Source: Stigmatella aurantiaca DW4/3-1
GTDB lineage: Bacteria > Myxococcota > Myxococcia > Myxococcales > Myxococcaceae
Reading direction: 5' to 3'
Assembly: GCF_000165485.1 (NCBI RefSeq)
Contig: NC_014623.1
Span: forward strand, 8,512,893 to 8,576,892
Length of the DNA: 64,000 nt
Translations under genes and position numbers: made by a program
Notes under the pieces: generated by a model
Database searches by the model: none
The model's input: only the letters and a program-made list of their open reading frames with translations
Told to the model about the DNA's origin: nothing
Shown here: in pieces, positions 39,728-56,263 of the stretch
How positions within the stretch are numbered: the stretch's first letter is position 1
Layout of the letters: every line of letters starts with the position of its first letter

Positions 39728-42238
39728 GTGAAGACTCCACGCTCCCTGCGCACCTACCGCGCCAAGCGCGATTTCCAGAAGACTTCCGAGCCCGCGCCCG
39801 AGGCCAAAGCCCCTCGCCGGCGAGGCGCGCCGCCCCTCTTCGTCGTGCACAAACACGACGCCACCCGGCTGCACTACGACCTGCGGCTGGAGATCGACGG
39901 CGCGTTGGCGAGTTGGGCGCTGCCCAAGGGCCCCAGCTTCGACCCGAAGACGAAGCGCCTGGCGGTGGAGACCGAGGACCACCCACTGGCCTACGCCGGG
40001 TTCGAGGGGCGCATTCCCGAGGGGGAATATGGCGGTGGGGACTCTCTGCTGTGGGACCGGGGCACCTACGAGACCGTGCCGCCCGGAGAGGCCCCTGAGC
40101 AGCGCAAGAAGGGCCATCTCACGGTGCAGCTCCACGGGGAGAAGCTCAAGGGCCGCTGGCACCTCATCCGCACGAAGTCCCGGGGAAAGAAGGCCCAGTG
40201 GCTGTGCTTCAAGGCAATGGATGGCGAGGCAGACGCGGACTACGACGTCACCGCCGACCGGCCCGAGTCCGTGAAGTCCGGCCGCAGCGCCACCCGGGGG
40301 CCCGTGCGCAAAGGGGCGCTCAAGTCACGTCCCCTCCCAGCCGAACAACTCCTCGAGCGTGTGTGGCCTCCCATGCTCGCCCAGCTCTCCGTGCCCACGG
40401 AGGCGGACGATGCCACCCACCTCTATGAGGTGAAGTACGACGGCTTTCGCGCCCTGGCGGCGCTCTCCTCGGGCGCGCTGACACTCCACAGCCGCAACGG
40501 CCATGATCTCTCCGGGCGCTTTCCTCAGCTCGCCGAGGCGCTGCGCCAGTTGCGCGTCACCGAGGCCGTCCTGGATGGGGAGATCATCGCCCTGGATCCT
40601 CAGGGCCGCTCCCGCTTCCAGCTGCTCCAGAAGGGGAGCGATGCGGAGCAACGCTTCGTGGCCTTCGACCTGCTCTGGCTGGATGGGGAGGACTTGCGCC
40701 CGCGTCCCCTGGAGGCCCGGCGCGAACTCCTGGAGCAACTGCTCTCGGGCGTGAAGCCCCCGCTTCAGCTCTCCGAGCGCCTGGACTTGCCCGGGGACGA
40801 GGCCCTCGCGAAGGCGCGAAGTCAGGGCTGGGAGGGGCTCATCGCCAAGCGCCGGGGCGCGCCCTATGTGGGCTCACGCTCCAGAGACTGGCTGAAGCTC
40901 AAGGTCCAGGCCGCTCAGGAGACCGTCATCCTCGGCTATCTGCCCATCCAGAACGCCCGCGCCCGGGAAGAGATCGGCGCCCTCCTGGTGGGCGTGCACG
41001 GGCCGGACGGCTACCACGACGTGGGCAAGGTGGGCACGGGCTTCTCCTCGGAGACGCGGCGCGAGTTGCGCGCGCTGCTCGACCGGCAGCGTGTCCGAGC
41101 ACCCGTCGCGGTGGATGCGAAGCCTCGCCCCGGGGCCGTCTGGGTCAAGCCGAAGTACGTGGCCCAGGTCCACTTCACCGAGTGGACGCACGATGGCCGG
41201 CTGCGGCACCCGGTGTTCCAGGGCCTGCGCACGGACAAAAAGCCGCAGGAGGTGGTGCGGGAACAAGTGTCTGAGCCCCGGAAAGCGGCCCAAAAATCCA
41301 AGGCCGCCCCCAAGTCGGGGGCGCGCCGGGCTCCCCGGGCATTCTCGGCCCGCGCCACGCGCTCCCAGGTCCAGGAGGAACCCGCGGAGGCCGAGGGGCG
41401 GGCACGGCTGACGCACGGGGACCGGGTGCTCTATCCCCAGGAGCGGCTCACCAAGCAGGATGTGTTCGCGTACTACCGCGAGGCCGCGCCCCTGCTCCTG
41501 CCCGTGCTCGCGAACCGGCCCCTCGCCGTGCAGCAGTGGCCCGCGGGCATCCAGGCCCCGGGCTTCTTCCGGCACGAGCTCTCGGGCATGCCCGCGTGGC
41601 TGCCCACCCTGCGCGTGAAGCACGAGGCGAAGACGCTGGCGCACGTGAACGTCCAGAGCCTGGAAGCGCTGCTGTGGCTGGCCAATCAGTCGGCCCTCAC
41701 CCTGCACATCTGGTCCAGCCATGCGCCGAAGCTCGCGCAGCCCGACTGGGTGGTGTTCGATCTGGATCCGGGCAAGGGCCCCTGGGAGGACGTCATCACC
41801 GTCGCCCAGGCCCTGCGCGAGAAGCTGGAGGCGCTCGGCCTGGAGAGCCTGCCGAAGACCTCGGGCAAGCGCGGGCTGCACGTGCTCATCCCCCTGGCCC
41901 CGGGACACACCTACGCTCAGACCCAGCGGTTCGCGGAGAAGATCGCCGCCGAGTTGGAGACAGAGCTGGGCAGCCTCGCCACCACCGAGCGCACCATTCA
42001 AAAGCGCCGGGGGCGGCTCTACCTGGACGTGGGTCAGAACGGCCGGGGAAAGACCGTGGTGGCGCCCTATTCACTTCGCGCCATTCCCGGGGCCCCCTTC
42101 TCCGCCCCGCTCGCATGGAGTGAGGTGACGCGGAAGCTGGATCCCCTGCGCTTCACCCTGAAGACGCTGTCCAAGCGGCTGGATGCCGTGGGGGACCTGT
42201 TCGCGCGGGCCCTTCACGGCACACAAACGCTGCCCTGA
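39728..42238 (+). CDS. ligD: DNA ligase D (PE-LIG-POL order)
   Basis: The 836-residue protein is the multi-activity enzyme of bacterial non-homologous end joining. Residues 1-185 are the 3'-phosphoesterase (VVHKHDATRLHYDLRLE; GEYGGGDS). About 200-520 are the ATP-dependent ligase with the adenylated lysine in VKYDGFRA, ELDGEIIAL-like VLDGEIIAL, and WEGLIAKR. About 560-835 are the primase-polymerase (QWPAGIQ, VVFDLDPG with the metal aspartates, KRGLHVLIPL). This order matches Pseudomonas LigD, not the POL-first order of Mycobacterium. The start is GTG at 39728. The Ku partner is not in this window. It partners Ku to join blunt or damaged ends in non-growing cells. Confidence 0.96.
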   Translation: MKTPRSLRTYRAKRDFQKTSEPAPEAKAPRRRGAPPLFVVHKHDATRLHYDLRLEIDGALASWALPKGPSFDPKTKRLAVETEDHPLAYAGFEGRIPEGEYGGGDSLLWDRGTYETVPPGEAPEQRKKGHLTVQLHGEKLKGRWHLIRTKSRGKKAQWLCFKAMDGEADADYDVTADRPESVKSGRSATRGPVRKGALKSRPLPAEQLLERVWPPMLAQLSVPTEADDATHLYEVKYDGFRALAALSSGALTLHSRNGHDLSGRFPQLAEALRQLRVTEAVLDGEIIALDPQGRSRFQLLQKGSDAEQRFVAFDLLWLDGEDLRPRPLEARRELLEQLLSGVKPPLQLSERLDLPGDEALAKARSQGWEGLIAKRRGAPYVGSRSRDWLKLKVQAAQETVILGYLPIQNARAREEIGALLVGVHGPDGYHDVGKVGTGFSSETRRELRALLDRQRVRAPVAVDAKPRPGAVWVKPKYVAQVHFTEWTHDGRLRHPVFQGLRTDKKPQEVVREQVSEPRKAAQKSKAAPKSGARRAPRAFSARATRSQVQEEPAEAEGRARLTHGDRVLYPQERLTKQDVFAYYREAAPLLLPVLANRPLAVQQWPAGIQAPGFFRHELSGMPAWLPTLRVKHEAKTLAHVNVQSLEALLWLANQSALTLHIWSSHAPKLAQPDWVVFDLDPGKGPWEDVITVAQALREKLEALGLESLPKTSGKRGLHVLIPLAPGHTYAQTQRFAEKIAAELETELGSLATTERTIQKRRGRLYLDVGQNGRGKTVVAPYSLRAIPGAPFSAPLAWSEVTRKLDPLRFTLKTLSKRLDAVGDLFARALHGTQTLP

Positions 42239-42264: not shown

Positions 42265-45200
42265 TCAGGGCCCCAGGGGGACGGCGAACGCCGTTCCGTT
42301 CTGGGTCCCCGTCCGGTAGCTGGTCGGCGCTCCGATGACGAGCGTCGGGGGCACCCCGGTCGCGCCGGGAGACAGCGAGAGGTCCTGACCGAGGTTGGAG
42401 CGCTCGTTCACATCGCCCACCGCGATCATCCAGGGTGTGAGCGCGCCCTTGGATTGAGCGCCGCCGGCGTAGAGGAACACCGCGCCGCCGCCGTCCGAGG
42501 CCACCGACGCCCCGGGCGCGCTGATGATGAGGTCCGGGATGCCATCCCCCGTCCAATCCTTGCCGCCCTCCATCGCCCGCCCGAAGTTCACCGCGCGCGT
42601 GCGGTGCACCAGCGTCACCGGGGGCGTCGTGCTCCCCAGGGCGCTCATCAGCTTCTCCCCCGAGGCGGGGAGGTTCTCCAACAGCTCCGCCGTCTCGAAG
42701 AGGAGCACCACGGGCTGCGTCACGCCCTCGAAGGGCACGCTCGTGGCGCTGATGGCCACGCGGTCCTTCTTGTCGTTCAGGAAGTTGCCCGCGCGCGCGA
42801 TCGCCACGCCAAGCCCCAGGTTGTTGGTGCCCACCTCCGCGTCCGCGGCCACGCGCACCCAGGAGGCCGTCTTGCGGCCGCCGCACCGGGCCCCTCCCGT
42901 GTCATAGCCCATGAGGATGATGACGCCCGCGCGGCCCGACTCCGTGTAGCGCCAGGCGACCTCATCGCAGCCATCCGCGTTCAGGTCCCCCAACACCGCC
43001 GGCGCCGAGGTCTGCCGCACCGTGGAGGGCGGCGTGGAGTAGAGCGGATCGCACCCCATCGACAGCTTCGCCAGCGAGCTGTCGTCCGGAGTGCGCCCCA
43101 GGAAGACCTCGAAGCCATTGTTGCGCAGGGCGCCGATGTCCTCCTTGCCGTCTCCGTTGAAGTCGAAGCCACCCACCAGGCCCCGGCCAATCTGGCTGCG
43201 CCGGCACAGCCCATCCGTCTCCGGCGTGCACGTGCCGATGACCACCGGCGCCCACAGCCGGTAGGCATCCTTGAAGGAGCCGTCTGCCTGCCCCAACGAC
43301 ACGATGAGCCCACCCACGGCCTGGTTGCTGGATTGGACGCAGCCCGCCTTGGGGGCCGTGGCGTACACCGCCAGCTCCGCCGTCTGCGAGGCGCTCGGCA
43401 CGGACAGGGCGGGCGAGCCCACCACCAGATCCTGGCGGCCATCCCCGTTGAAGTCCGTGAACGTCACATCCGTGCCCACGTTGCGCCCGTTCGTCAGGGG
43501 CGAGGTGGCCCCTTCCGCCACGAGCGTGGCCGCCGTCTTCCGGGTCACGTCGTAGACGTAGGCGCGGCCGGAGCCAAAGTCGTTCCCACTGTTGGCCATC
43601 CCGGCGTAGCCCGGCACGCCCACCAGCGCCACCGTCCGGTTTCCTGCGCCCACCGCCGCCGCCACCACCTCGCCAAAGCGTTCCACGGCGGGCTTGGCCT
43701 GCACCCTGTGGGCCTTGCGCGACCACTCGGCCAGCGAGGCGCCCGCGCGGGTGAAGGACTCCACCCGGCCCACGAACGCGCCCGCCTCGGAGGTGGAGCG
43801 GCCCGAGAAGGCCACCAGCCCCGCGCCTCCCGGGCCATTCCACGCCGCCAGGCCCACGCCCAGCACGTCCAAGGCGTTCTGTCCGTGGAGCACCGACAGC
43901 GGCTTGTTGAGGATGCTGCCCGGGGAGAGCGTCGCCAGCGGGTACGCCAGCAACCGGCCCGCGTTGCCCAGCACAGGGGGGGTGGGCGTGGAGGCGTAGG
44001 GCGCGCCGAGCACCAGCTCGGGACCCGGCTGCCCGTCCACATCCACCACCGCCCAGCTCCGGCCCGCATTGATGTTGGCCGCATCACCGTAGATCTGCGC
44101 GTAGGCCTCGGCCCGGAGCATCTGCACGGGCTTCTCCGGGGGCTCGCCCGTGGGCTGGAAGGCGGAGAGGTTGAAGAGCAGCACCCCACCGGAGTCCGCG
44201 CCCGACTTCACCCCGCCGCTGCCGCTCAGGTCCGGGGAGTTCGCCCGGTCCGACAGCACCATCAGCAGCGGCGGCCGGCCGCCCTCGCCTGGCACCGAGC
44301 CCAGACGCCAGGTGCCTTCGTTGGAGTCCGCCGTGTTCGACGGCAGCAGGTACACGTCCGGGTTGGCCCGGAAGCGCGCGCCATCCGCCCGCCCGAAGTG
44401 CACCGAGACCGCCGTCAACACCGTGGCGGACACGCTCCCGTCCGAGTTGTACCGGGACACCTTGCTTTGCCCCGCCACATCCACGCGCCCATCCCCATTG
44501 AGGTCCGCCACCACCAGCGTCCGGCCGAAGTCCGTGTTGCTGCGGGACATCGTGCCGCCTTCCTTGGCCAGATCGTTTCCGCCCAGCCGGATCGACGGCA
44601 GGTCCGGCACCGGCTGGCCCGGCGTCAGCGTGAAGATGTCCACCGTGCCGCGGCGGCTCACCGACGAAGACGGGGCCAGATCTCCCGCGGGGGCGCTGGC
44701 GATGATGTCCAGGTCTCCATCCCCATCCGCGTCCGCCAGGGCCAGCCCCGAGCTGAACGCCCCACCCCGCGTGATGCTCGTCAGCGGCGAGCGCATCGGC
44801 TCCGGGCCATTGGCGCCCCAGCGGTAGAGGTACACCGCCCCCGAGTCCGCACCGGTGATGTCCGCCCCCGGAGAGCCCACCGCCAGCTCCGCGCGCCGGT
44901 CACCATCGAGGTCTCCGGCCGCCAGCGTTTCACCGAAGCTCGCCGTGTCCGTCAGCCCGGCGAGGACCCACGTGGGCTCCAGGGGCAGCCCCGCGGCACT
45001 GCCCCGGTAAATGAACACCGCGCCGCCCGAGGGACGGCCCAGGTCGCTCTCGCGCCGGCCCACCGCCACATCCTCGAAGCCATCCCCATCGAAGTCCGCG
45101 GAGACGATCGACGCCACGTCCGTGAGGCGCCCATGGGGCTGCGAGGGGCGCGTCAGCTCCTCCATCACCCGGACGGAGACCTGGACCTTGTCGCCGGTGA

Positions 45201-46002
45201 AGGGATCCACCGCCTCCAGCAGCACCGGTTCCCGGGCCCCGGGCTCCGTGTGGATGCGGTTGCCGGACACCCTGCCGGGGCCGGACACCTTCGTCCACAC
45301 CACCCGGTCACTGCCCCCGGTGGTGTCCAGCTGCGCCGAGGAACCCGACGGCAGCGCCAGCACCTGGGGATTGGCGCGCAGCCGCGCGTCCTTGTTCACC
45401 TCGAACTCGAGCAAGGCCTCGTCGCCCGTCCGGGTGTCCCGCACGCGAAGCTGATCCAGGCCCTGCCCCGTCCCCGCCTTGTAGACACCCTCGGTGGACA
45501 GCGTGCTGCCCGCCTGGGTGCGCAGCAGCGTGAACTCGGCGCCGCCAATCAGCCCTTGCGTGGTGATCTGGAAGGTGGTTCCCGGGCGCACCATGGCGCG
45601 CCCCGGGGCCACATCGAAGGCCGCCAACACCTGCACCGAGACCCGCGCGTCCGCCACCTGCACGCCCTGGGCATTGCCCGAGCACCGCGCATCCTCCACC
45701 ACCAGCGTGTCCGTGGCCGGCGTGGGCCCGGCGATGAAGCTGTTGCCGATGATCTGGCCCGAGGAGCCTCCGGCCTCGGCCCGGAAGCGGTAGGCGCCGC
45801 TGCCGCCCCGGGCGGAGAGGGACACCGGCTCCAACACGCGCACCTGCGTGGGGGTCACGGTGAGCGACAGCGGGCTCAGCCCCTCGCACGGGTCCAGAAC
45901 GGGCGGCTGCTCCAGGGGAGGCAGCGCGTCGTCTTCGGCGTTGCAGGCCAGGGTCAAGAGGGCGGCGAGGGGAACCGCGCGGAAGAGCAATCGGGATGGC
46001 AT
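42265..46002 (-). CDS. Large FG-GAP-repeat lipoprotein (last gene of exported-protein operon)
   Basis: The 1245-residue protein starts with a lipoprotein signal ending ALLTLAC (Cys about 19). Residues 30-340 look like beta-sandwich Ig-like modules. From about 355 to the end FG-GAP-type repeats recur with calcium loops (DFDGDGFEDVAVG, DLDGDRRAELAVG, DADGDGDLDI, DLNGDGRVD, DFNGDGRQDLVVG, DFNGDGKEDIG, DWTGDGIPDLIIS), probably forming one or two seven-bladed propellers. It should be surface-exposed and calcium-dependent. The gene comes 17 bases after the cytochrome-like lipoprotein gene. The start at 46002 fits the signal sequence; the frame continues open to 46200 without a plausible N-terminus. 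Confidence 0.85.
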   Translation of the reverse strand: MPSRLLFRAVPLAALLTLACNAEDDALPPLEQPPVLDPCEGLSPLSLTVTPTQVRVLEPVSLSARGGSGAYRFRAEAGGSSGQIIGNSFIAGPTPATDTLVVEDARCSGNAQGVQVADARVSVQVLAAFDVAPGRAMVRPGTTFQITTQGLIGGAEFTLLRTQAGSTLSTEGVYKAGTGQGLDQLRVRDTRTGDEALLEFEVNKDARLRANPQVLALPSGSSAQLDTTGGSDRVVWTKVSGPGRVSGNRIHTEPGAREPVLLEAVDPFTGDKVQVSVRVMEELTRPSQPHGRLTDVASIVSADFDGDGFEDVAVGRRESDLGRPSGGAVFIYRGSAAGLPLEPTWVLAGLTDTASFGETLAAGDLDGDRRAELAVGSPGADITGADSGAVYLYRWGANGPEPMRSPLTSITRGGAFSSGLALADADGDGDLDIIASAPAGDLAPSSSVSRRGTVDIFTLTPGQPVPDLPSIRLGGNDLAKEGGTMSRSNTDFGRTLVVADLNGDGRVDVAGQSKVSRYNSDGSVSATVLTAVSVHFGRADGARFRANPDVYLLPSNTADSNEGTWRLGSVPGEGGRPPLLMVLSDRANSPDLSGSGGVKSGADSGGVLLFNLSAFQPTGEPPEKPVQMLRAEAYAQIYGDAANINAGRSWAVVDVDGQPGPELVLGAPYASTPTPPVLGNAGRLLAYPLATLSPGSILNKPLSVLHGQNALDVLGVGLAAWNGPGGAGLVAFSGRSTSEAGAFVGRVESFTRAGASLAEWSRKAHRVQAKPAVERFGEVVAAAVGAGNRTVALVGVPGYAGMANSGNDFGSGRAYVYDVTRKTAATLVAEGATSPLTNGRNVGTDVTFTDFNGDGRQDLVVGSPALSVPSASQTAELAVYATAPKAGCVQSSNQAVGGLIVSLGQADGSFKDAYRLWAPVVIGTCTPETDGLCRRSQIGRGLVGGFDFNGDGKEDIGALRNNGFEVFLGRTPDDSSLAKLSMGCDPLYSTPPSTVRQTSAPAVLGDLNADGCDEVAWRYTESGRAGVIILMGYDTGGARCGGRKTASWVRVAADAEVGTNNLGLGVAIARAGNFLNDKKDRVAISATSVPFEGVTQPVVLLFETAELLENLPASGEKLMSALGSTTPPVTLVHRTRAVNFGRAMEGGKDWTGDGIPDLIISAPGASVASDGGGAVFLYAGGAQSKGALTPWMIAVGDVNERSNLGQDLSLSPGATGVPPTLVIGAPTSYRTGTQNGTAFAVPLGP

Positions 46003-46019
46003 GCGTTGATCTCGAAGCT

Positions 46020-47570
46020 TCAAGGTTTGGCGCCAGAAGACGCCCAGCGCTGAATGATGTTGATGAGCTGCGGGTCCAGGGGACCGTCGGCCGGCATGCG
46101 CTGATCCCTCACCGCCTTGACGATGAGCTCGGCGTTCTCCTTCCACTGCGCATAGGTGGACAGCGACCGGCCAGGGCCCGAGACGTGGCACTGGGCGCAC
46201 CGCGACTCATGGATGGAGCGGACGTTCTGCTCCCAGCTGAGCACCGCCGCCCCGACCGGCTGGTAGTCGAAGTGCACCACCCGGCGCGTCTCGGAGCCAT
46301 CCAGGAAGCGCGCCACCACGCTCAGCGACTGCATGCCCGGCTCCAGCGCCGCGAAGGAGAAGGCCCGGGGGGTTCCATCCGCCTCCGCGCCGCCCAGGCT
46401 GTAGGTGGGCCCCTCCGAGAGGATGTCCGCGCCGCCGAGTTGGAAGAGCAAGGCCGCGGGCGCCGGGCCCGCCGGAGGAATGGCGCGCACCACCAGCCCG
46501 TCGGCCACCACCTTCTGCCCCTGGTACAGCCCACTGACCCGAGCCACCGCGCCCCAGCTGATCGCCGCGGCCTGCCCGCCGAGCACCACCCAGGCACAAC
46601 CGCTCTCGTCCGCCGCCAGGAAGCGGAACTCGCGCATGTCCACGCCCATGGCCTCGCCCCACCGGTCCGCGTCCGCGTCATAAGAGAGCAGCTGGTCGCT
46701 GGACTTCACCCACAGGAACCGGCCCGCCGCCAGGAGCTGCGCGGGCCGCTGGGCGAACTCCACCCGCCGCCAGCGCCGGTCCTTGAGCCGCAGGATCCGC
46801 TCCGTGGTGAGCGCCCACAGCTCGGCGCTCTGGTCCTTCGAGGCATCCAGGGAGACCAGGGACACCAGCGACTCGTTCTCGTCCAGGGGAATGTCCGCCG
46901 GGCGCACCTGGTGCACGTTGGCCGAGAGCGCCACCGCCACGGAGGGCTGGCCATCGCGCAGCATCCACAGGCCGGGGGCCGCGTCCTCCACCGCGGGCGC
47001 CGCCGCCAGCGTGGTGATGCCCGTCAGGGACTCCCCGCCCACCTTGAGCTCGGTGAGGAGCCCCTCGTGCAGCCGGTACAACCCCGAGGTGTGCGCCAGC
47101 CACACCGCACCGTCCGACGTCTGCGCCGTGGCCACCAACCCGGGCCCCAGCTTCGCCCGCCAGGACGGGGCAATCATCCAGCCGGAGTCCGCGATGAACA
47201 GGCCCTTCTCCGCCTCCACCAGCGCGGTGCGGGGCCCGGTGCGGAACACGGCTCGAACCAGGCCCGGCGCCACGGGATTGCCCGGGTGGCTCACCAGTTG
47301 CGCGCGGGTGCCATCCAGCCGGATGCGGACCGCCTCTCCCGCCGCGGTGACGAAGACACCTCCGCCTGCCTGATCCGCGAAGCCAGACCCGGGCGCCAAG
47401 GATTGCGCCGAGGAGACATAGGCTGGCTGGAACGGAACCGGCCGAGGCCGTTCCAGCGGGAGGGAGGAGGACGAACAGCCGCCAACACCTGCGGCAGCTG
47501 CCAGGACGAGAAGGAGGGGGAGCACGGCAGGGCGCCCCTCCTTCTCCCGCGAGAAGGCTGTCATCTTCAT
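46020..47570 (-). CDS. Propeller-like lipoprotein with a C-terminal heme-type CxxCH site
   Basis: This 516-residue protein has a lipoprotein signal (AGVGGC, Cys about 32). Residues of about 60-330 contain repeated beta-strand segments with GVWLAHTSGLYRLHE-like blades, consistent with a propeller of the two-component-regulator type. The region of about 330-430 is beta-rich. Near the C-terminus CAQCH is followed by SGPGRSLSTYAQW and RMPADGPLD, a layout typical of cytochrome c domains with a distal methionine (KAVRDQRMP). This suggests a c-type heme near residue 465. It is the fourth gene of the operon, and redox chemistry in the outer envelope is plausible. Confidence 0.8.
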   Translation of the reverse strand: MKMTAFSREKEGRPAVLPLLLVLAAAAGVGGCSSSSLPLERPRPVPFQPAYVSSAQSLAPGSGFADQAGGGVFVTAAGEAVRIRLDGTRAQLVSHPGNPVAPGLVRAVFRTGPRTALVEAEKGLFIADSGWMIAPSWRAKLGPGLVATAQTSDGAVWLAHTSGLYRLHEGLLTELKVGGESLTGITTLAAAPAVEDAAPGLWMLRDGQPSVAVALSANVHQVRPADIPLDENESLVSLVSLDASKDQSAELWALTTERILRLKDRRWRRVEFAQRPAQLLAAGRFLWVKSSDQLLSYDADADRWGEAMGVDMREFRFLAADESGCAWVVLGGQAAAISWGAVARVSGLYQGQKVVADGLVVRAIPPAGPAPAALLFQLGGADILSEGPTYSLGGAEADGTPRAFSFAALEPGMQSLSVVARFLDGSETRRVVHFDYQPVGAAVLSWEQNVRSIHESRCAQCHVSGPGRSLSTYAQWKENAELIVKAVRDQRMPADGPLDPQLINIIQRWASSGAKP

Positions 47571-47581
47571 CTGCTTCCGGT

Positions 47582-48964
47582 TCAGGCCAAGAGGGGCCGC
47601 AGGGGGTCCACCCGGGTGATGCTGTAATCGAGATTCGCCGAAGCCAGCACCGTGGCGATGATGTGCTCGGGCAGGATGTTCTCCCCGCTAGGATCCGACG
47701 CCCCGGTCCGAAGGTCAAACGTGCCTGGGGACATGCCGATGTCGCCGCTGCGGCCCAGCACGAAGTTGTGCTTCACCCCTGCCCCCATGAGCAAGCAACT
47801 GTTGGAGAGGTGGTGGTCGCGTCCCCCCGAGGTGTTGATGGTCGGGGTGCGGGAGAACTCGGAGAACACCATGATGGTGGTGTGGTCCATGAAGTTGCCG
47901 CCCGCCGGATGGCTGCTTGCCCGGAGGTCATCCACAAGCGTGGCCAGCGCGTCGAAGCCCCGGCGCTGGTTGTTGGCGTGGGTGAGCTGGGTACCAAAGT
48001 GCGTGTCCAGGCCACCCGTCATGTTGATGGTGACGCACTGGCTGATGCCCTGCTTGAGGGCGGTGGCCACCAGCGCGGCGCGGCCCGCCTCGTTGTCGTA
48101 GGGCCCCGTGCTGGGCAGGCCGTACTTCTGGCGCAGCTCCGCGTGCTCGGGCCGCTCGAAGCGGAACGCGTTGTCCAGCCGGTTGGAGAGCACCGAGCGC
48201 ATCTGGTCCTGGCTCGTCGAGTACGTCTGCCCCACCCCCCGCGCCCCGTAGGCCGCGGCCTCGCAGGAGATGGGCTGGCCGCGGAAGTCCAGCAGCTCCT
48301 TCTCGATCTCGCTGTCCAGCGTCCGGGTGCTGGGCGACAGCGTGAGCAGCAGGTCCGCCGAGCGGCTCACCCGCAGGGCGTTGGCCTGGCCGGGGTAGCG
48401 GTCGTTGTACGTCTCGATGTTGTAGGCCACCGAGGGGATGGGCACCGCGGGCTTGAACTGCCCGACGATCTCCGTGGCGGTGGACGAGCCGCGCGCCGCG
48501 CTGCCGATGGGCTGCTTCCCCGTGAGGAAGTAGCGGTAGCCCACCTCGTGGCCCAGCGTGTTCATGTTGATGCCGCGCACCACCGACATCAGGTCGAAGT
48601 GGTTCGACAGCTTGCCCACCGCGGGCCCGAAGTGGATGTTGGAGCGGACGCCGTTCTTCTCCGGCACCAGCGGCCGCGACTCGAAGCGCGCGTCGTTGAT
48701 GAGGTTGTAGCCTGGGAGAATCTGCGTGCTGGTGACCCGCTCCGGCGTGAAGACATCCGGGTCTTTCGGGTCAAACGCCAGCAGCTGATCCCAGCCGCCA
48801 TTGAAGTACACGAAGATGAAGCAGCGGTCCGGGGGAGCGAGGTCCGTCGCGTCGGCGAAGGCACGGAAGGGCAGGCCTCCAAAGACGCTGGCCCCCATGA
48901 AACCGGCGGCGGCCTTGAGGAGGTTGCGGCGTCCAGGACTGGGGGGAGTTGGGTTCTTCTTCAT
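47582..48964 (-). CDS. Tat-exported DUF1501 protein
   Basis: The 460-residue protein begins with a twin-arginine signal (RRNLLKAAAGFMG). The body matches the DUF1501 family: FVYFNGGWDQL near the start, HFGPAVG, MSVVRGINMNTLGHEVG, MTGGLDTHFGTQLTHANN, and FSEFSRTPTINTSGGRDHHLSNSCLLMGAGV near the end. The family resembles the alkaline phosphatase/sulfatase fold, and the Asp/His residues (GWDQ, DTHF, GRDHH) could bind metal, yet no activity is known to me. In planctomycetes such genes occur beside DUF1588/1585-type genes, as here. Eleven bases separate it from the next gene. Confidence 0.9.
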   Translation of the reverse strand: MKKNPTPPSPGRRNLLKAAAGFMGASVFGGLPFRAFADATDLAPPDRCFIFVYFNGGWDQLLAFDPKDPDVFTPERVTSTQILPGYNLINDARFESRPLVPEKNGVRSNIHFGPAVGKLSNHFDLMSVVRGINMNTLGHEVGYRYFLTGKQPIGSAARGSSTATEIVGQFKPAVPIPSVAYNIETYNDRYPGQANALRVSRSADLLLTLSPSTRTLDSEIEKELLDFRGQPISCEAAAYGARGVGQTYSTSQDQMRSVLSNRLDNAFRFERPEHAELRQKYGLPSTGPYDNEAGRAALVATALKQGISQCVTINMTGGLDTHFGTQLTHANNQRRGFDALATLVDDLRASSHPAGGNFMDHTTIMVFSEFSRTPTINTSGGRDHHLSNSCLLMGAGVKHNFVLGRSGDIGMSPGTFDLRTGASDPSGENILPEHIIATVLASANLDYSITRVDPLRPLLA

Positions 48965-48982
48965 GGTCGAGTTCCCCGAGGG

Positions 48983-49654
48983 TCAGTAGGTGATGAAGCG
49001 CGTGTCCGTCATCATCGCGATGCACATGACGGCGAAGGCCTGGTCCGGCTTCTTGAGGGTCAATGCCCGGGTGGAGGACTGGGTGAAGAGCCTCTTCCAC
49101 TTCGGCAACTCTTCGCCCGCCAGCGGCGCGCCCCAGAAGCGGGTGGAGAGGTAGACGACCAGCTGCTCCACCTGGGCATCCGAGAGCGCCTTCATGTCCT
49201 TGATGGAGCCGGGCACCGTGCGGCTGAGCACCCGGGCGTTGGGGTCCGCCTGGTTCAGCTCGGCGGCGGCCTGGTCCAGACACACCTTCCGGGCCCCATC
49301 CTCCATGAACTTGGCGAACACCAGGTTGGGCTCGGTGTTCTCGGTGACGATGTTGGCGTAGTCGGCGCGGCCCAGCGAGGGCGCCAGGGTCTCCAGCTCG
49401 TCCCAGGGACGGCCCACCGTCGTCTGGATGGACGTCTTGAGCTGGGCCACGGTGAGCCGGCGCGGGGCACGGCCCACGGAGCCACCCTGCTCCTCGGGAT
49501 CCGGCAGGGGCATCACCCCTCCTTCCCCCCCTTCGTGGGGGTCGGGGATGGGATCCAAGGTCCCTTCCTCCGGCGGTGGGCGGACGGACGGCTCTTCGTT
49601 ACTGGAGCAGGCGGGGGCAAGCGCGAGCAGCGCGAGGGCGACGAAGCGGCGCAT
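48983..49654 (-). CDS. Lipoprotein of the DUF1501 operon
   Basis: The 223-residue protein has a lipoprotein signal ending LAPAC (Cys about 16) and a proline/acidic linker (residues 20-60). A helical part follows with RRLTVAQLKTSIQTTVG and later WKRLFTQSSTRAL, which resemble short modules at the start of DUF1592/1595-type planctomycete cytochrome-associated proteins. It ends VMCIAMMTDTRFITY. The start codon overlaps the stop of the upstream gene by one base (TGATG), so the two are translated together. It probably forms a complex with its neighbours in the envelope; there is no enzymatic motif. Confidence 0.82.
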   Translation of the reverse strand: MRRFVALALLALAPACSSNEEPSVRPPPEEGTLDPIPDPHEGGEGGVMPLPDPEEQGGSVGRAPRRLTVAQLKTSIQTTVGRPWDELETLAPSLGRADYANIVTENTEPNLVFAKFMEDGARKVCLDQAAAELNQADPNARVLSRTVPGSIKDMKALSDAQVEQLVVYLSTRFWGAPLAGEELPKWKRLFTQSSTRALTLKKPDQAFAVMCIAMMTDTRFITY

Positions 49655-51663
49655 CAGTCGATCCTCCGGTAGGCATCGGTCATCACCAGCGTCTCGATGA
49701 GTGACTTCAGGCTGTGGTGGTTGCTGGCAAAGTTCTTGGACAACGAGTCGAGGTACAGCTGCTGCTCCTGAACCGTCATGGCCCGCCCCAGGAACTCGTT
49801 CCAGATGCGCTTCACGGTGCAGCGCTCCATGTCCCCCGTCTGCATCATCCGCTGCACCAGCAAGGCCGGGCCGCCCTCGATGTTGGGCTCCTCGGAGGAG
49901 GTGCGGTACAGGTACGTCTTGAGCATGCCCAGGGAGTTGGCGGCATCCTCGTCGAACGCCTGCATCACGTAGGCGCCACACTCGCCGCCGCAAGAGGTGT
50001 CCCCGTTCAGGGCGCACGTCTGGCACTTCGGATCAAAGCGCGGGTAGCGCTCCGGCGAGAGGAACAGCGAGTTGCGCTCGTCGAAGCGGCCCCAGTGCGC
50101 GCCCGTGGGCTCGATGGTGGCGTGGCAGTAGTTGCAGCCGGCGCGCCGCGCCAGGTTGTTGTCGCGGTGGCTGGGGTCCTCTGGCGGGGGCAGCGGGTCC
50201 TTCGACGGCACGAACGTCTTGCAGAGGAAGGCCTCGTAGAACTCGTTCACGCGCGCGCGCTGCGTGGGGAAGCGGTACAAGAAGGACGGGGTGGTGAGCA
50301 CCCCCGAGTGGAACGCGCTGCGCGTGTACTCCTGCCAGGTGCCCGGCTGGTTGTACGCGATGGCCGGCACCGTCTCCAGCGGGGCAGGCGCCGTGACGTT
50401 GAAGATGCCCACGCCCTGCCGCTCCCGGTAGAACTCGGACAGCGTGCCGTTCACGAACGAGCGGCGCGTGGTGAGGATGTTGTAGTAGGGCTCGTCGTTG
50501 CGCACCACCGAGTCGGCGATGAGCTCCGGCTCCATGTTGAAGGCGTCGGTGCGCTCGTTGTAGGTGTTGGCGTAGGTGTCCGCCACACCGCAGCGGCGCA
50601 TCTTGACGCCGCACCCGCAGCTCCGGTCCGCCGCGAAGCGCGCCGTCTCGCAGGACTCCAGGGTCCAGGGGTTCATGTCCCGCTCCTGTGCGTCATAGGC
50701 GCACACGGCCACCTGCCCGGCCTGCTGCACCGCGGGGCTCACGGGGAAGAACGGCAGGGGCTTCATCAGATAGCCCTCGCGCTGGATGCAGCCACGCGGG
50801 GCCGCGTAGCTGCCCTTGACGCCGTTGCGCAGCGTGGGCTCCAGCGTGCAGCGGTCCAGCCGGATCAGCGCCTTGGGGTCCGTCACCGTGGGGTGCTTGA
50901 AGGCCACCACCTTGCCCGCCCCATCCAGCACCTCTTCGGTCAACGCGCCCGTGGTGTTCTTGTTCGGGTCCGGCTCGCAGGCGTGCGGGTGGAGCTTGCC
51001 GTCGCTCAGACGCCGCATGTCACAGAAGTACAAGCGCTTGGCCAGCACCAGCCCCTTGCTCACCGCCACGTCGCACGAGGTGACGGAGGCATCGGTCGCG
51101 TCCAGCCGCGTGCACGCGAAGTAGTTGGTGTCGTAGTCGTAGCTCACCGGCAGCGGCACGCCCCGCTCGTCGGCGCACTGCTTGGTGGCCGGCTCCGCAT
51201 GTGGGTCCTGCCGCTCGCTGTTGCAGGAGGCCTGCGCGATGTAACCGTCACACGCCTGTCCGTTGACCCCCCGGAGCCCGGTGGCGGTGTTGCCCCGCAT
51301 GCCGAACGGGTTGTTCATCGCCCCCGTGCCCTGCACCCGGTAGTCGCCGTTGTCGTTGACGCTGGCCTTGATGTTCGAGCGCAGCAGCGCGCGGTGGAAG
51401 CCGCGCATCCGCAGATAGAACTCTTCCGAGCTCATCATCTGCCGGATGTCCTCGGAGGTGATGGAGCCCTGGGCCTGGATGGCCTGGTACTCCTCGATCG
51501 TGGGAGGGCGGCCGAGCAAGTCCAACGACAGCTGGCGCAAGTGCCGCTGCAGGGGAACCTGCTCAATGGGAGCACAAACAGCCTCCTCGGCGGAGGCCGG
51601 GGCCACCGCCATAAGCAAGGCTAAAGCCGCGAGGGCGGTGAAGCAGCGACGCGCGCGGGGCAA
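49654..51663 (-). CDS. Cysteine-rich exported DUF1588-like protein (first gene of operon)
   Basis: The 669-residue protein has a Sec signal (FTALAALALLMAVAPASA). QLSLDLLGRPPTIEEY near the mature N-terminus resembles the DUF1549-type start, and the C-terminal RRAGCNYCHATIEPTGAHWGRFD resembles the DUF1588 signature with CxxCH. About 30 cysteines, many in pairs, suggest disulfides or metal/heme sites. It is the presumed head gene of five. The start is a TTG at 51663 with GGAGG six bases upstream, which places the signal peptide at the N-terminus; the ORF continues to 51804 but that extension is not signal-like. Function is unknown; partnership with the DUF1501 protein is expected. Confidence 0.85.
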   Translation of the reverse strand: MPRARRCFTALAALALLMAVAPASAEEAVCAPIEQVPLQRHLRQLSLDLLGRPPTIEEYQAIQAQGSITSEDIRQMMSSEEFYLRMRGFHRALLRSNIKASVNDNGDYRVQGTGAMNNPFGMRGNTATGLRGVNGQACDGYIAQASCNSERQDPHAEPATKQCADERGVPLPVSYDYDTNYFACTRLDATDASVTSCDVAVSKGLVLAKRLYFCDMRRLSDGKLHPHACEPDPNKNTTGALTEEVLDGAGKVVAFKHPTVTDPKALIRLDRCTLEPTLRNGVKGSYAAPRGCIQREGYLMKPLPFFPVSPAVQQAGQVAVCAYDAQERDMNPWTLESCETARFAADRSCGCGVKMRRCGVADTYANTYNERTDAFNMEPELIADSVVRNDEPYYNILTTRRSFVNGTLSEFYRERQGVGIFNVTAPAPLETVPAIAYNQPGTWQEYTRSAFHSGVLTTPSFLYRFPTQRARVNEFYEAFLCKTFVPSKDPLPPPEDPSHRDNNLARRAGCNYCHATIEPTGAHWGRFDERNSLFLSPERYPRFDPKCQTCALNGDTSCGGECGAYVMQAFDEDAANSLGMLKTYLYRTSSEEPNIEGGPALLVQRMMQTGDMERCTVKRIWNEFLGRAMTVQEQQLYLDSLSKNFASNHHSLKSLIETLVMTDAYRRID

Positions 51664-52389: not shown

Positions 52390-53583
52390 TCAGCGCGCGT
52401 CCTGCTCCGGGCCCGTCCCCGTCCCAGCGGAGACCGGGTCCACGGGAATGTCTTGAGGCAACAGCACGGTGAACGTCGCGCCGTGCCCCTGCTGGCTCTT
52501 CACCTCGATGGTGCCGCCGTGCAGTTCCACCAACCGGCGCACGCTCGCCAGCCCGACGCCGGAGCCCGCGATGGAGGCCGGTACGTTGCTGGCCCGGTGG
52601 AACCGCTCGAAGACGCGCGGCAGATCCTCCTGGGGAATGCCCAGCCCGGAGTCCTCCACGCACAGCCGCACCTGACGCTCCGAAGGGGTGGCCTGTGCCG
52701 CCAGCGTCACGACGATGTCGCCCCCGGAGGGGCTGTACTTCAAGGCGTTGCTCAGCAGGTTGTCCAGCACCCGCTCCAGGCTCTTGGGGTCCCAGTTGCC
52801 CATGAAGTCCTTGCCCTCCAGGCGCAGGTGAAAGGCGTGGCGGTTGGACGTGCTCTCCAACTCGCGCACCTTGGCGTGCACCAGGGCGGACAGGTCCATG
52901 CGCTCCCGGTACAGCAGTTGTTCGCGGCCCCGGGTGGCCACCAGGAAATGATCGATGAGTTCACCCATCCGCATCGCCGCGTGGCTGATGCTGGACAGCC
53001 GCGTGTTCAGCGAGGGCGTCAGCGCCTCGGGCGGCAGCTTGACGCGCAAGAGCTGGGCGTTGAGGGTGATGATTTGCAGCGGCCCCTTGAGGTCGTGCGT
53101 GGCCAGGGAGAACAGCTCGTCCCGGACGGCCAGGGCCTCGCGGGCGGCCCGCTCGGCGCGCTCGGCCTGGAGCCGCCGCTCCTCCAACGCCCGCGCCATC
53201 CGCACCGTCTCCAGCGCCGCGCGCAAGCTGTGGCGCAGGCGCTCGGGGGTGAACGTGCCCTTGACGAGGTAGTCCTGGGCACCGGACTGCATGGCCTCCA
53301 CCGCTAGGCGCTCGTTGCCGGTGCCGGTGAGGATGATCGCGGCGGGGACGCGCTCGGCACAGCGCTCCCGAAGGGCATGGAGCAGCTCCACCCCGTTCAT
53401 GCCCGGCAGATGAAAATCCATCAGCACCACGTCCGGGATGGACGCGGTGGCCCGCTCCAGCCCCTCCTCCGCGGTGGAGACCTGCTCCAACTTCCAGCGC
53501 GTGTCGGGATCGCGCTCCAGGGCTCGGCGGACCACGAGCTGATCGGCGACGCTGTCATCGACTTGGAGGACGCGCACGCTCAC
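52390..53583 (-). CDS. Receiver-histidine kinase hybrid (last gene of phytochrome operon)
   Basis: The 397-residue protein has an N-terminal receiver domain (VLQVDDSVAD acidic pocket; phosphoacceptor aspartate in LMDFHLPGMNG about residue 56; LTGTGNE; KGTFTPE lysine) followed by a coiled-coil, an H-box LATHDLKGPLQIIT (His about 163) and HATPase_c with N-box NLLSNALKYS, VEDSGLGIP and GSGVGLASVRR. The receiver-first order suits a protein that is activated by phosphotransfer and then phosphorylates a further regulator, or a feedback-controlled kinase. The GTG start overlaps the response regulator stop (GTGA). It has no sensory domain beyond the receiver. Confidence 0.92.
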   Translation of the reverse strand: MSVRVLQVDDSVADQLVVRRALERDPDTRWKLEQVSTAEEGLERATASIPDVVLMDFHLPGMNGVELLHALRERCAERVPAAIILTGTGNERLAVEAMQSGAQDYLVKGTFTPERLRHSLRAALETVRMARALEERRLQAERAERAAREALAVRDELFSLATHDLKGPLQIITLNAQLLRVKLPPEALTPSLNTRLSSISHAAMRMGELIDHFLVATRGREQLLYRERMDLSALVHAKVRELESTSNRHAFHLRLEGKDFMGNWDPKSLERVLDNLLSNALKYSPSGGDIVVTLAAQATPSERQVRLCVEDSGLGIPQEDLPRVFERFHRASNVPASIAGSGVGLASVRRLVELHGGTIEVKSQQGHGATFTVLLPQDIPVDPVSAGTGTGPEQDAR

Positions 53584-54020
53584 CGGGGGGGCCCCTTGTC
53601 GCCAGGTAAGATGGCGGCAGTGAACCAGAACGCCTGAAGTGCCTGCGCCGCGGTCTGGAGCCGGATGCCCCCAGGGGGCTTGTGCAGATAGCTGTTCGCA
53701 CCGCTCGCGTAGGCCCCCTCCACGTCCAGCGGCTCCTCGGAGGAGGAGAAGATGATGACGGGGATGGTACGCAGCTCGGGATCCGACTTGAGGACGGAGA
53801 GCACCTCCTGGCCCCCAATCCCAGGCAGGTGCAGATCCAACAGCACCAGCGATGGACGGAGCGCTTTCACGTGCTCGCCCCGGCGGTGAAGGAAATCCAG
53901 CGCGCTCTCGCCGCTGTGCACACGGATAATGGGAGGGCTCAAGGGAAGCTGCCGGGACAACCGCAGCAGGGCCTCGGCATCCGAGTCACTGTCCTCCACC
54001 AGCAAGAGCGGCCGGGCCAT
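53580..54020 (-). CDS. Single-domain response regulator (Rcp1-like)
   Basis: This 146-residue protein is a stand-alone receiver: LLVEDSDSD gives the acidic pocket, LVLLDLHLPGIGG the phosphoacceptor aspartate (about residue 62), IIFSSSEEP the Thr/Ser switch and YLHKPPGG the conserved lysine. Small receivers of this type commonly take phosphate from phytochromes (Rcp1 with Cph1). The ATG at 54020 overlaps the phytochrome stop by one base (TGATG); a TTG one codon earlier is also open. It should pass phosphate from the upstream photoreceptor kinase, perhaps to the kinase-receiver protein coded next. Confidence 0.92.
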   Translation of the reverse strand: MARPLLLVEDSDSDAEALLRLSRQLPLSPPIIRVHSGESALDFLHRRGEHVKALRPSLVLLDLHLPGIGGQEVLSVLKSDPELRTIPVIIFSSSEEPLDVEGAYASGANSYLHKPPGGIRLQTAAQALQAFWFTAAILPGDKGPPR

Positions 54021-56263
54021 CAATCAGGTCCTCGTCCAAGCGTGAAATAGAAGGTCGCTCCCCGTTTCGGGGTGGAATCCACCCAGAGTGCCCCCCCGTG
54101 AAGTTGAACCAGACGGCGCGCGATGGCCAGTCCCACCCCGGTTCCGCCCCCGTAGGACTTCGCTGGGTGCAGACGGCGGAACATGTCGAAGATGGCTTCG
54201 TGGAATTGAGCGGAAATGCCGATGCCAGCGTCCTTCACATAGAAAACCGTGGGCGCGGGGTAGCGCGCCGCGGCCTCGGGCCGTGGCTCACCGGGCCCGC
54301 AAAAACCCACCTCCACCCAACGCTCTGGCGCTTCCTGATATTTGGCCGCGTTCGTCAGAAGGTTCGCCCACACCTGCGCGATGCGGACACCGTCACACCT
54401 CACGGCCGGTAAGCGGCGAGGCAGGCGCACCGTCACCTTGTTCTCCGACAGCCGGGCGGACAAGGTCATCAACACCTCGTCCACCACCTCCTGCATGTCC
54501 ACCTCGCCCCAGGCGAGATCCACGCGGCCCATGCGGCTGTACTCGAACAGCCCATCCAACATGTCGCCGGAGCGCTGCGCGAGCCAGTCCAGCGCCTCCA
54601 CGTGCGCCCGGCCTTCCTGGCCGAGCGCGGCGCCGTGATCTTCGAGGACGAAGGCCGCGTATTGGCGGATGCCTCGCAGCGGCTCCTTGAGGTCGTGCGC
54701 GATGGTGTGGCCGAAGGCGTCCAGCTCCGCGTTGGAGCGGCGCAGGGCCTGGGAGAGGCGGGTCAGCTCGGCGGCCTGGCGCAGCACCACGCCCACCAGC
54801 GCGCCGCGAAACCCCTCCGCCGCGCCGAGGTCCGCGCGCTTCCAGGGCAGGCTGGTGTCCCGCACCGTCTCCTCCCAGGCCTGGAACGAGCCTCGGGGGT
54901 GGAGGCGCTGGTGGCCTGGCTCGGGCTCGGCGGGCTTCCGCGGGTTGCCCGCCCAGGAGATGGTGCGCGCCACCTCCGGACGGAACCAGATGGCGAAGCG
55001 GGCCGCGGCGGGGGCCAGCCGCACCGCCAGAATCCCCGCGGCCACGTCCGCGCGAGCGGCCAGGGGCGGGTACACGGTCCCCAGGCGATCGGTGTGGAAG
55101 GAGGTCTGGAAGGGCTGGGTGGCCAACCACGCGACCAGCGCTTCCACCTCGTCCTGCGCGGGCGTGCACCCCACGAGCAACGGCTCCTCGCCCAGCAACA
55201 GCGCGACGCCCGCGGCCCCCGTCAAGGCCAGCACGCGCTCGCTCTCCTTCTCCAGGACTTCCTCCAGCGTCCCGCCCTCGCCCATGGCCGTGGCGAGCTG
55301 GCCCAGGAGCGCGGCGCGGTGGGCATCCTCGGAGGCCTCGGCGGCCCGCTCCTCGGCGGAGAGCTGCAACGCCAGCAACTGGGTGAGCACCTCGCAGGCG
55401 CGGCGCCGCTCGTGGGAGATGTGCAGCGGCTCCAGGTGGTGGCAGGCGATGAGGCCCCACAGCACGCCCTCCTTCAGGAGGGACAGGGAGAAGGAGGCGC
55501 CCACGCCCATGTTGCGCAAGTACTCCAGGTGCACGGGGGAGACGCTGCGCAGCGCCGAGTTGGAGAGATCCAACGGACGGCCCAGCGCCGGCACCACCGG
55601 GGGCAGCAACGGCACGGGCCGCGCGCGGGCATCGGCGATCAGCCGCAGCGGGTTGCGCGTGTAGAGCGCCCGCGCCTGCACGGGGATGTCGGTGGCCGGA
55701 AAGTGCATGCCCAGAAAGCCATCCATCCCCCCCCGTTTGGACTCCGCCAGCACCTCGCCGTGCCAGTCCGCATCGAAGCGGTACACCATCACCCGGTCGA
55801 AGCCCGTGAGGGCCCGCACCGTGTCCGCCGCCGTCTGGAGGAGTGCTTGCGTGCCCTTCACCCCCGCCAGCGGAGAGACCAGCCGCCGGACCACCTCCAG
55901 CGCCGTCTCCTCCATGCCCGGCTGAAGCTCCGCGGGCTCCAGCTCCAGCACGGTCAGCCCATCGCTCTCGTGCAACAGGGCCCGGTAGGCGCCCGCGGGC
56001 AGCACCACGCGCACCGAGCCCCGGGCCACCAGCGGCTCCCACTGGGCCAGCACCTCGGCGGGGAGCACCCGGCCAACCGGCTGGCCCAGGAGCGTCTCCG
56101 GGGGGCGCCCCAGCAACGCCTGGGCGTTGGCGCTCACCACCTCGAGGAGCCGGTCCGGCCCCCGGAAGGCGAGCAGCACCCCATGGGACTGGATCCCACC
56201 CAGCAAGTGGATGGGCTCACGGTCGCACTGGCTCAGATCGAGTTCAGAGACGGACGGGGGCAT
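54020..56263 (-). CDS. bphP: Bacteriophytochrome histidine kinase
   Basis: The 747-residue photosensor kinase has PAS-GAF-PHY input. The biliverdin-binding cysteine is Cys13 (LSQCDREPIH); FPATDIP holds the conserved Asp (about 192), and Tyr161, Tyr201, His245 and His275 occupy positions equal to Tyr176, Tyr216, His260 and His290 of Deinococcus BphP. The PHY tongue has IWFRPE and WAGNPRKP. Output is HisKA (IAHDLKEPLRG) and HATPase_c (NLLTNAAKYQ, VKDAGIGIS, GTGVGLAIARR). It should switch between red and far-red forms and control its kinase. AGGAGG precedes the ATG at 56263, and the heme oxygenase gene upstream overlaps by 20 bases. Confidence 0.95.
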   Translation of the reverse strand: MPPSVSELDLSQCDREPIHLLGGIQSHGVLLAFRGPDRLLEVVSANAQALLGRPPETLLGQPVGRVLPAEVLAQWEPLVARGSVRVVLPAGAYRALLHESDGLTVLELEPAELQPGMEETALEVVRRLVSPLAGVKGTQALLQTAADTVRALTGFDRVMVYRFDADWHGEVLAESKRGGMDGFLGMHFPATDIPVQARALYTRNPLRLIADARARPVPLLPPVVPALGRPLDLSNSALRSVSPVHLEYLRNMGVGASFSLSLLKEGVLWGLIACHHLEPLHISHERRRACEVLTQLLALQLSAEERAAEASEDAHRAALLGQLATAMGEGGTLEEVLEKESERVLALTGAAGVALLLGEEPLLVGCTPAQDEVEALVAWLATQPFQTSFHTDRLGTVYPPLAARADVAAGILAVRLAPAAARFAIWFRPEVARTISWAGNPRKPAEPEPGHQRLHPRGSFQAWEETVRDTSLPWKRADLGAAEGFRGALVGVVLRQAAELTRLSQALRRSNAELDAFGHTIAHDLKEPLRGIRQYAAFVLEDHGAALGQEGRAHVEALDWLAQRSGDMLDGLFEYSRMGRVDLAWGEVDMQEVVDEVLMTLSARLSENKVTVRLPRRLPAVRCDGVRIAQVWANLLTNAAKYQEAPERWVEVGFCGPGEPRPEAAARYPAPTVFYVKDAGIGISAQFHEAIFDMFRRLHPAKSYGGGTGVGLAIARRLVQLHGGALWVDSTPKRGATFYFTLGRGPD

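Follow-up and report, generated by a model that had tools for sequence, protein, structure and literature searches.

Five adjacent genes of the myxobacterium Stigmatella aurantiaca DW4/3-1, lettered A to E in the order of their transcription, form a real, conserved and functionally linked unit whose role is probably redox. They lie at positions 42265-51663 of a 64-kb stretch of the chromosome (NC_014623.1, positions 8,512,893 to 8,576,892), which is called the window here, and gene coordinates are given as positions within it. The five products may make up one envelope-bound redox module, built round protein C, a DUF1501 protein exported by twin-arginine translocation (Tat). We lean towards this reading with a confidence that falls somewhat short of even. 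Comparison of the sequences provides an operon, a core of A, B and C that extends to distant Myxococcota and to other metagenome-assembled genomes (MAGs), heme-c motifs in A and D, and, for C, a predicted fold with invariant acidic and His residues.

Layout of the operon

All five genes are on the minus strand. Gene A (51663-49654) has a TTG start and encodes a protein of 669 amino acids with a Sec-type signal. It is followed by B (49654-48983; 223 amino acids, lipobox LAPAC), C (48964-47582; 460 amino acids, twin-arginine signal GRRNLLK), D (47570-46020; 516 amino acids, lipobox GVGGC) and E (46002-42265; 1245 amino acids, lipobox LTLAC). The intergenic gaps are -1 base between A and B, 18 between B and C, 11 between C and D, and 17 between D and E. 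A first-pass annotation of the window had described five genes on one strand with gaps of -1 to 18 bases, their products all exported, one by Sec, one by Tat and three as lipoproteins. The coordinates and gaps hold, as do the export signals, which were assigned by eye from the sequence. A pattern scan among relatives found the lipobox in 13 of 22 B, 17 of 21 D and 16 of 19 E proteins; the pattern or the start calls were too strict for some of these, and the lipobox Cys column is invariant in the alignments of B (30 of 30) and D (24 of 24).

Conservation of the gene order

Relatives of C were obtained from 28 of 59 relatives searched, and a profile search with C at E 1e-30, run across 195 genomes of the phylum, gave a match in 100. 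By hand count, with at most eight candidates scored per genome, 83 of the 100 matching genomes have a single C-type match. Among the genomes listed with C matches, also counted by hand, 27 belong to one genus (g23), 16 to a second (g43) and seven to a third (g1). Each of the 27 listed g23 genomes has one C-type match, and none of the three genera occurs among the non-matching genomes listed.

The surroundings of C were surveyed in 80 loci, 42 close and 38 distant, in which A to E were located by tblastn and purpose-built hidden Markov models (HMMs). A locus was considered testable if its contig reached far enough. Nearly all of the named close loci belong to Myxococcus, Corallococcus, Archangium and their relatives. 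In this set A is upstream of C in 39 of 39 testable loci and B in 40 of 40, while downstream of C, D is found in 34 of 35 and E in 33 of 33. The conservation in relatives on which the first-pass annotation had staked its proposal is thus present in the close loci: where contigs allow, the sole exception to the order A-B-C-D-E is a locus without D (L097). The gap of -1 between A and B recurs unchanged in 19 of 20 relatives. One locus with the full A-B-C-D-E and a C that is 74% identical (L078; BNCN01000002.1) is titled 'Comamonas sp. KCTC 72670', a title that looks misplaced for a myxobacterial genome.

The distant loci, in which C has an identity of 36-44%, are all from MAGs, whose labels are Myxococcota, Deltaproteobacteria, Proteobacteria or simply bacterium. 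A precedes C in 28 of 28 testable loci and B does so in 31 of 31. D and E were sought in those distant loci, 18 in number, that extend 5.8 kb to either side of C. A D-like gene is present in 11 of these, upstream of C in eight and downstream in three; an E-like gene is present in nine, downstream in seven and divergent upstream in two. One or the other occurs in 14 loci, in orders that include DABC, ABCED and eABC. Apart from one of 50 bits (L147), the distant E matches have scores of 191-313 bits; they call for caution, FG-GAP being a common kind of repeat. In L142 and L144, the stretches matched by D and by E are separate. These counts in the distant loci lead us to regard A-B-C as the core, with D and E as recurrent partners of varying place.

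Chance clustering of the five genes was rejected, because their order is constant across relatives while the flanks vary. A kinase gene flanking the operon upstream served as the control. Among loci with at least 5.2 kb of upstream sequence, at a cut-off of 45% identity and by hand count, it is kept in 10 of 18 loci of one set (L037-L058) and in 14 of 35 of another (L070-L112), the two sets sharing genomes.

Proteins A and B

Protein A is Cys-rich, with 24 Cys, and has a CxxCH motif (CNYCH) at residues 510-514. It is under every Pfam cut-off, with 21.7 bits against 23.3 for PSD4, 15 against 27 for PSCyt3 and 20 against 25.8 for PSD2. At E 0.01, 15 members of the A family gave matches to PSCyt2 in 13, PSD2 in 13, PSD1 in 12, PSD4 in six and PSCyt3 in two. 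Residues 369-667 of A were aligned by hhalign to the canonical DUF1592/1588/1585 protein of the same genome with a probability of 97.2 and E 2.8e-11. As judged by profiles, A has a PSCyt2-like N-terminal part, and its C-terminal half is a putative diverged homologue of PSD4-PSCyt3-PSD2 (DUF1592-1588-1585). The first-pass label "DUF1588-like" is therefore borne out by profile comparison and fails in Pfam. A was rejected as a plain Pfam DUF1588 protein, being sub-threshold for every family and showing its kinship by profile comparison only.

In the alignment of A, C510, C513 and H514 are invariant in 42 of 42 sequences, and CxxCH is found in all 64 A proteins that are longer than 480 amino acids and score above 200 bits. 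The model of A has a predicted local distance difference test score (pLDDT) of 90.2. Searched against folds in the PDB, it gave no match (best Foldseek E 4.2; best VIA Z 5.8, to phycobilisome linkers), which is no proof of a new fold. Weak A-like proteins (31-51 bits) are also encoded about 7 kb downstream of C, on the minus strand, in three loci (L102:18451-20691, L106:18592-20835 and L107:18977-21202).

Besides C16, the lipobox Cys, C125 and C211 are invariant in the 30 aligned B proteins. PSD5 matches were found in four of these 30 members, with a best E of 0.00084, and no family match was found for the window's own B. Its residues 159-221 were aligned by hhalign to the DUF1595 region of the canonical DUF1592/1588/1585 protein (probability 39, E 3e-4). 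B thus appears to be a lipoprotein of a diverged, PSD5 (DUF1595)-like kind. Since A and B align to separate regions of a one-piece DUF1592/1588/1585 protein, we infer that they arose as halves of a single ancestral PSD/PSCyt protein. Adjacency of PSCyt/PSD and DUF1501 genes is the defining feature of the planctomycete-type module. With A and B directly upstream of C, a PSCyt/PSD partner adjoins DUF1501 in this operon as well, by a kinship that is profile-based and sub-threshold in Pfam.

Protein D, the heme-c motifs and the Rieske neighbours

Protein D contains the motif CAQCH and scores 17.5 bits with Cytochrome_CBB3, below the cut-off of 27. In 24 D members, Cytochrome_CBB3 was matched in 12 and the Reg_prop propeller in three. 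Columns C32 (the lipobox Cys), C458, C461 and H462 (the heme motif), M492 (the distal Met) and W509 are invariant in 24 of 24; the alignment includes nine distant rows with 16-24% identity to the window's D, of which the one from L147 has masked letters. CxxCH is spelled by 23 of the 24 proteins, and the D of L135 (2377-4272) has CX4CH. Except for this last, each D-like open reading frame (ORF) has CxxCH. Of the 41 D proteins longer than 380 amino acids, 40 have CxxCH followed by MP. As background to these 40 D and the 64 A proteins, seven of the 789 remaining gene calls from these loci, all crude, contain the motif. D can be read as a lipoprotein with a propeller-like N-terminal part and a C-terminal class-I cytochrome c with a putative heme, in agreement with the heme-type lipoprotein named at first pass. 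The genome encodes cytochrome c assembly proteins, seen as three PF01578 matches, one with an internal TGA.

Propellers recur around the module. A giant WD40 protein of 1401 amino acids and two related large lipoproteins are encoded upstream of a D-like gene (L121:1960-6162 and L131:329-5694), and the one lipoprotein tested is an NHL propeller.

The strongest hint of a redox module is given by double-Rieske proteins whose genes, in three distant loci, immediately precede A on its strand (L110:5460-6959, L111:409-1446 and L127:4246-6915, all plus; the starts of these ORFs are crude). All three have a twin-arginine stretch and then a lipobox ahead of the Rieske part, and the L110 protein, the one tested, matches Pfam Rieske with E 9.2e-20. 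The redox reading gains weight from the conserved heme-c motifs in A and D together with these Rieske genes, and on the same grounds the redox role suggested by the first-pass annotation is likely.

Proteins C and E

Protein C scores 102.5 bits with DUF1501 (PF07394) over residues 49-412, against a Pfam cut-off of 27. The residues invariant in 53 of 53 sequences include R12 and R13 of the twin-arginine signal, D59, D320, H322 and S368, and also E369, R372, N377, D383 and H384. C, six distant relatives and three DUF1501 paralogues of the same genome all have the motifs D-x-H, S-[DE]-F-x-R-T and G-x-D-H. An AlphaFold2 model of C (pLDDT 87.4, 53 sequences) was matched by VIA, with Z 20.8, to 7mw8_C, a nucleotide pyrophosphatase/phosphodiesterase (NPP), with 244 residues aligned at a root-mean-square deviation of 3.1. 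A PafA mutant had Z 20.1 and sulfatases 18.8 and below. Foldseek alone was weaker, with a best E of 6.2e-5 and a template-modelling score of 0.38. C is thus predicted to have an alkaline phosphatase superfamily fold. The 50 VIA matches listed have Z of about 17.6-20.8 and identities of 6-13%; C resembles NPP, PafA and the sulfatases in its model fold, and differs from them in this sequence identity and in having partners with heme motifs. A PDB sequence search with C gave no match at E 1, and hhalign of C against NPP homologues gave no significant alignment.

The SDHG strand of the NPP family presumably corresponds to S-E-F (368-370) in C, and C has H139 at what we take to be the position of the NPP nucleophile, G149 minus 10. 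The His of SDHG, usually a metal ligand, would then be replaced by Phe370, with H139 at the spacing of the nucleophile. This view of the active site is kept provisional because the profile comparison with NPP homologues was not significant.

Protein E scores 138.1 bits with FG-GAP, against a cut-off of 22.1, and has seven DxDxDG-type calcium motifs. By these features and its lipobox it is a lipoprotein with FG-GAP or integrin-alpha-type propeller repeats, which is how the first-pass annotation had classed it.

Related modules in the same genome

In four further modules of the S. aurantiaca genome a partner gene always stands before a C-like gene. These are DUF1800 + DUF1501 pairs at 7.038-7.041 Mb and at 8.993-8.996 Mb, a DUF1592/1588/1585 gene paired with an HXXSHH (DUF1552) gene at 5.230-5.232 Mb, and a DUF1501 gene at 1.711 Mb (L066:5843-9068, equal to 1.709-1.712 Mb) preceded by an overlapping lipoprotein gene. 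The repeated pairing suggests that the partner and the alkaline-phosphatase-fold protein act together in each version. The DUF1800 + DUF1501 pairs resemble the operon in the order of partner and DUF1501 and in the common motifs D-x-H, S-D-F-x-R-T and G-x-D-H; they differ in having DUF1800 and in that both of their DUF1501 paralogues lack H139. The operon was rejected as a member of this type of pair, since DUF1800 is found only at the two other places in the genome. The DUF1592/1588/1585 protein can be aligned with A and B, has CxxCH and is followed by the HXXSHH gene. It is one polypeptide, unlike A and B, and its partner is HXXSHH where the operon has DUF1501.

The lipoprotein at 1.711 Mb matches A very weakly, and CxxCH was not flagged in it; with its DUF1501 neighbour it is possibly a heme-less cousin of the A-C pair. 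A short DUF1501 match at 8253050-8253208 (L005, L069), which covers 54 profile positions with 43.8 bits in a 190-codon frame, is possibly a remnant. Scanning this 8.253 Mb site with the HMMs of A to E gave no match to C, A, B, D or E.

A proposed redox module and its rivals

As an envelope-bound redox module, the system would work as follows. C would fold with its metal in the cytoplasm and then be exported by Tat. Outside, it would bind A and B, the presumed halves of a PSD/PSCyt partner that is canonically one polypeptide. A would carry one heme, and a second would sit on the C-terminal tail of D; by way of D, electrons would move between A/C and either the respiratory chain or an acceptor at the surface. 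E might be a scaffold or a substrate-binding part, and C would be the likeliest catalytic subunit. A more specific proposal, which we consider doubtful, is that A-E constitute a hitherto undescribed oxidoreductase outside the cytoplasm, whose DUF1501 protein, with its alkaline phosphatase fold, has been turned from hydrolysis to metal-dependent redox chemistry; two c-type hemes, joined in some lineages by a double-Rieske protein, would supply or remove the electrons. If true, the oxidoreductase reading would extend to many PSD/PSCyt-DUF1501 modules of Planctomycetes and Verrucomicrobia.

Several points weigh against a redox module. All loci were collected via C, which is present in them by construction, and the relatives used to train the HMMs overlap the close set. 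D and E are not obligatory, because four of the 18 testable distant loci (L116, L123, L129 and L132) carry neither. The distant D matches, of 36-115 bits, often cover the cytochrome tail only, and the propeller part may therefore differ in those loci. The hemes of A and D are putative, deduced from CxxCH, and the Rieske gene was seen in only three of the 80 loci. In the DUF1800-DUF1501 loci (L067, L068), no CxxCH was flagged among the ORFs; since DUF1501 paired with DUF1800 may have no heme partner, the chemistry of DUF1501 need not be redox.

The fold of C, with its matches to NPP phosphodiesterases, PafA and sulfatases, would also suit a hydrolytic module. C would then act outside the cytoplasm, on a polymer of the surface or of prey, as a phosphatase, phosphodiesterase, sulfatase or phospho-group transferase; A, B, D and E would be adaptors, and the heme domains redox sensors or side-step electron carriers. 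Judged by eye, the motifs of C (S-E-F at 368-370, H139) do not seem to be the usual NPP set, and hydrolysis leaves two conserved heme sites and the Rieske neighbours unexplained. In its favour, other bacteria have DUF1501/DUF1800 genes located with those for chitin synthase (PMC5122149), and in Verrucomicrobia sulfatase genes accompany those for PSCyt (PMC5615132). On balance, a hydrolytic module is rather unlikely.

It is quite improbable that the five genes form a module for surface adhesion, predation or matrix building, in which the integrin-like E and the propeller of D would be exposed outward to bind the matrix or a partner cell, while A, B and C assembled or cross-linked them by redox chemistry. 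This would fit E, as a large calcium-propeller lipoprotein, and the C matches listed for 27, 16 and seven genomes of genera g23, g43 and g1, which are absent from the non-matching genomes listed. However, A-B-C comes with no E match in nine of the 18 testable distant loci, and no direct link connects the genes with adhesion or predation. The weakest alternative is that there is no complex, and that common regulation or a slow rate of rearrangement holds together five envelope genes of separate functions. It agrees with the changing place of D and E in distant loci, but is very improbable in that the five persist amid reshuffled flanking genes, the overlap of A and B is retained, and D and E re-appear beside A-B-C in differing arrangements, which looks like selection for association.

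Neighbouring genes

The host replicon is a single chromosome of 10,260,756 bases. The gene for DNA ligase D (ligD; 39728-42238, plus strand), with phosphoesterase, ligase and polymerase domains, is convergent with E and ends 26 bases from it. On the other side, 726 bases upstream of A, a response-regulator histidine kinase and a bacteriophytochrome are encoded on the minus strand (52390-56263). Residues 1-746 of the bacteriophytochrome (747 amino acids) give a match of 1389 bits to PDB 8uph, an entry which we take to be S. aurantiaca BphP2. The full-length S. aurantiaca BphP2 has been described (PMC12048173). This light-sensing pair could be a regulator of the operon. It was excluded as a member of the system because the kinase, by the counts given above, is patchy among relatives with enough upstream sequence; it was not found in L082 (Myxococcus xanthus AM003) or L083 (Myxococcus sp.). 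A promoter pattern scan gave no promoter-like site. Terminator-like sites numbered six, against 3.8 +/- 1.8 in shuffles, and sigma-54-like matches 21, against 29.6 in shuffles. An Rfam scan gave no match.

Relation to known clusters and significance

DUF1501 genes occur in genomic clusters in the Planctomycetes-Verrucomicrobia-Chlamydiae (PVC) superphylum, and the domain was reported to be without biochemical or other characterization (PMC4452313, 2015). WD40 genes adjoin DUF1501 in Planctomycetes (PMC5587647). In Verrucomicrobia, PSCyt genes adjoin two unknown gene families near sulfatase genes, with nothing known of their function; DUF1501 is not named in the main text (PMC5615132). Rhodopirellula baltica has 41 copies each of two such domains, and an earlier study cited in the same paper proposed a redox role for a PSD1/PSC2 protein (PMC2754498). 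Elsewhere the domains are mentioned, with no function in the excerpts concerned (PMC4960237, PMC4982196, PMC6004670, PMC7789669, PMC3597751, PMC7563939, PMC6653060, PMC6329079). Literature searches on DUF1501, PSCyt and PSD found no function for these proteins and no description of this five-gene unit. With DUF1501 clusters, WD40-DUF1501 neighbours and PSCyt neighbourhoods all described in these papers, though without a function, the "undescribed system" of the first-pass annotation was too strong a term.

The PVC clusters are like the operon in their clustered DUF1501 genes, their WD40 neighbours and their PSCyt/PSD genes beside unknown families. The operon differs in having the partner split into A and B, the cytochrome on a separate propeller lipoprotein, D, and an added FG-GAP lipoprotein, E. 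It also differs in number, with one C-type match in most of the matching genomes (83 of 100) as opposed to the 41 copies of each domain in R. baltica. DUF1501 clusters were thus known already; as far as we have searched, the myxobacterial five-gene form, the wide A-B-C core and the Rieske-linked version are new.

Planctomycetes have PSD, PSCyt and DUF1501 domains in large numbers, and the operon is a compact form of them that makes an old question testable. With its conserved heme motifs and the predicted fold of C, it could yield the first function for the whole group.

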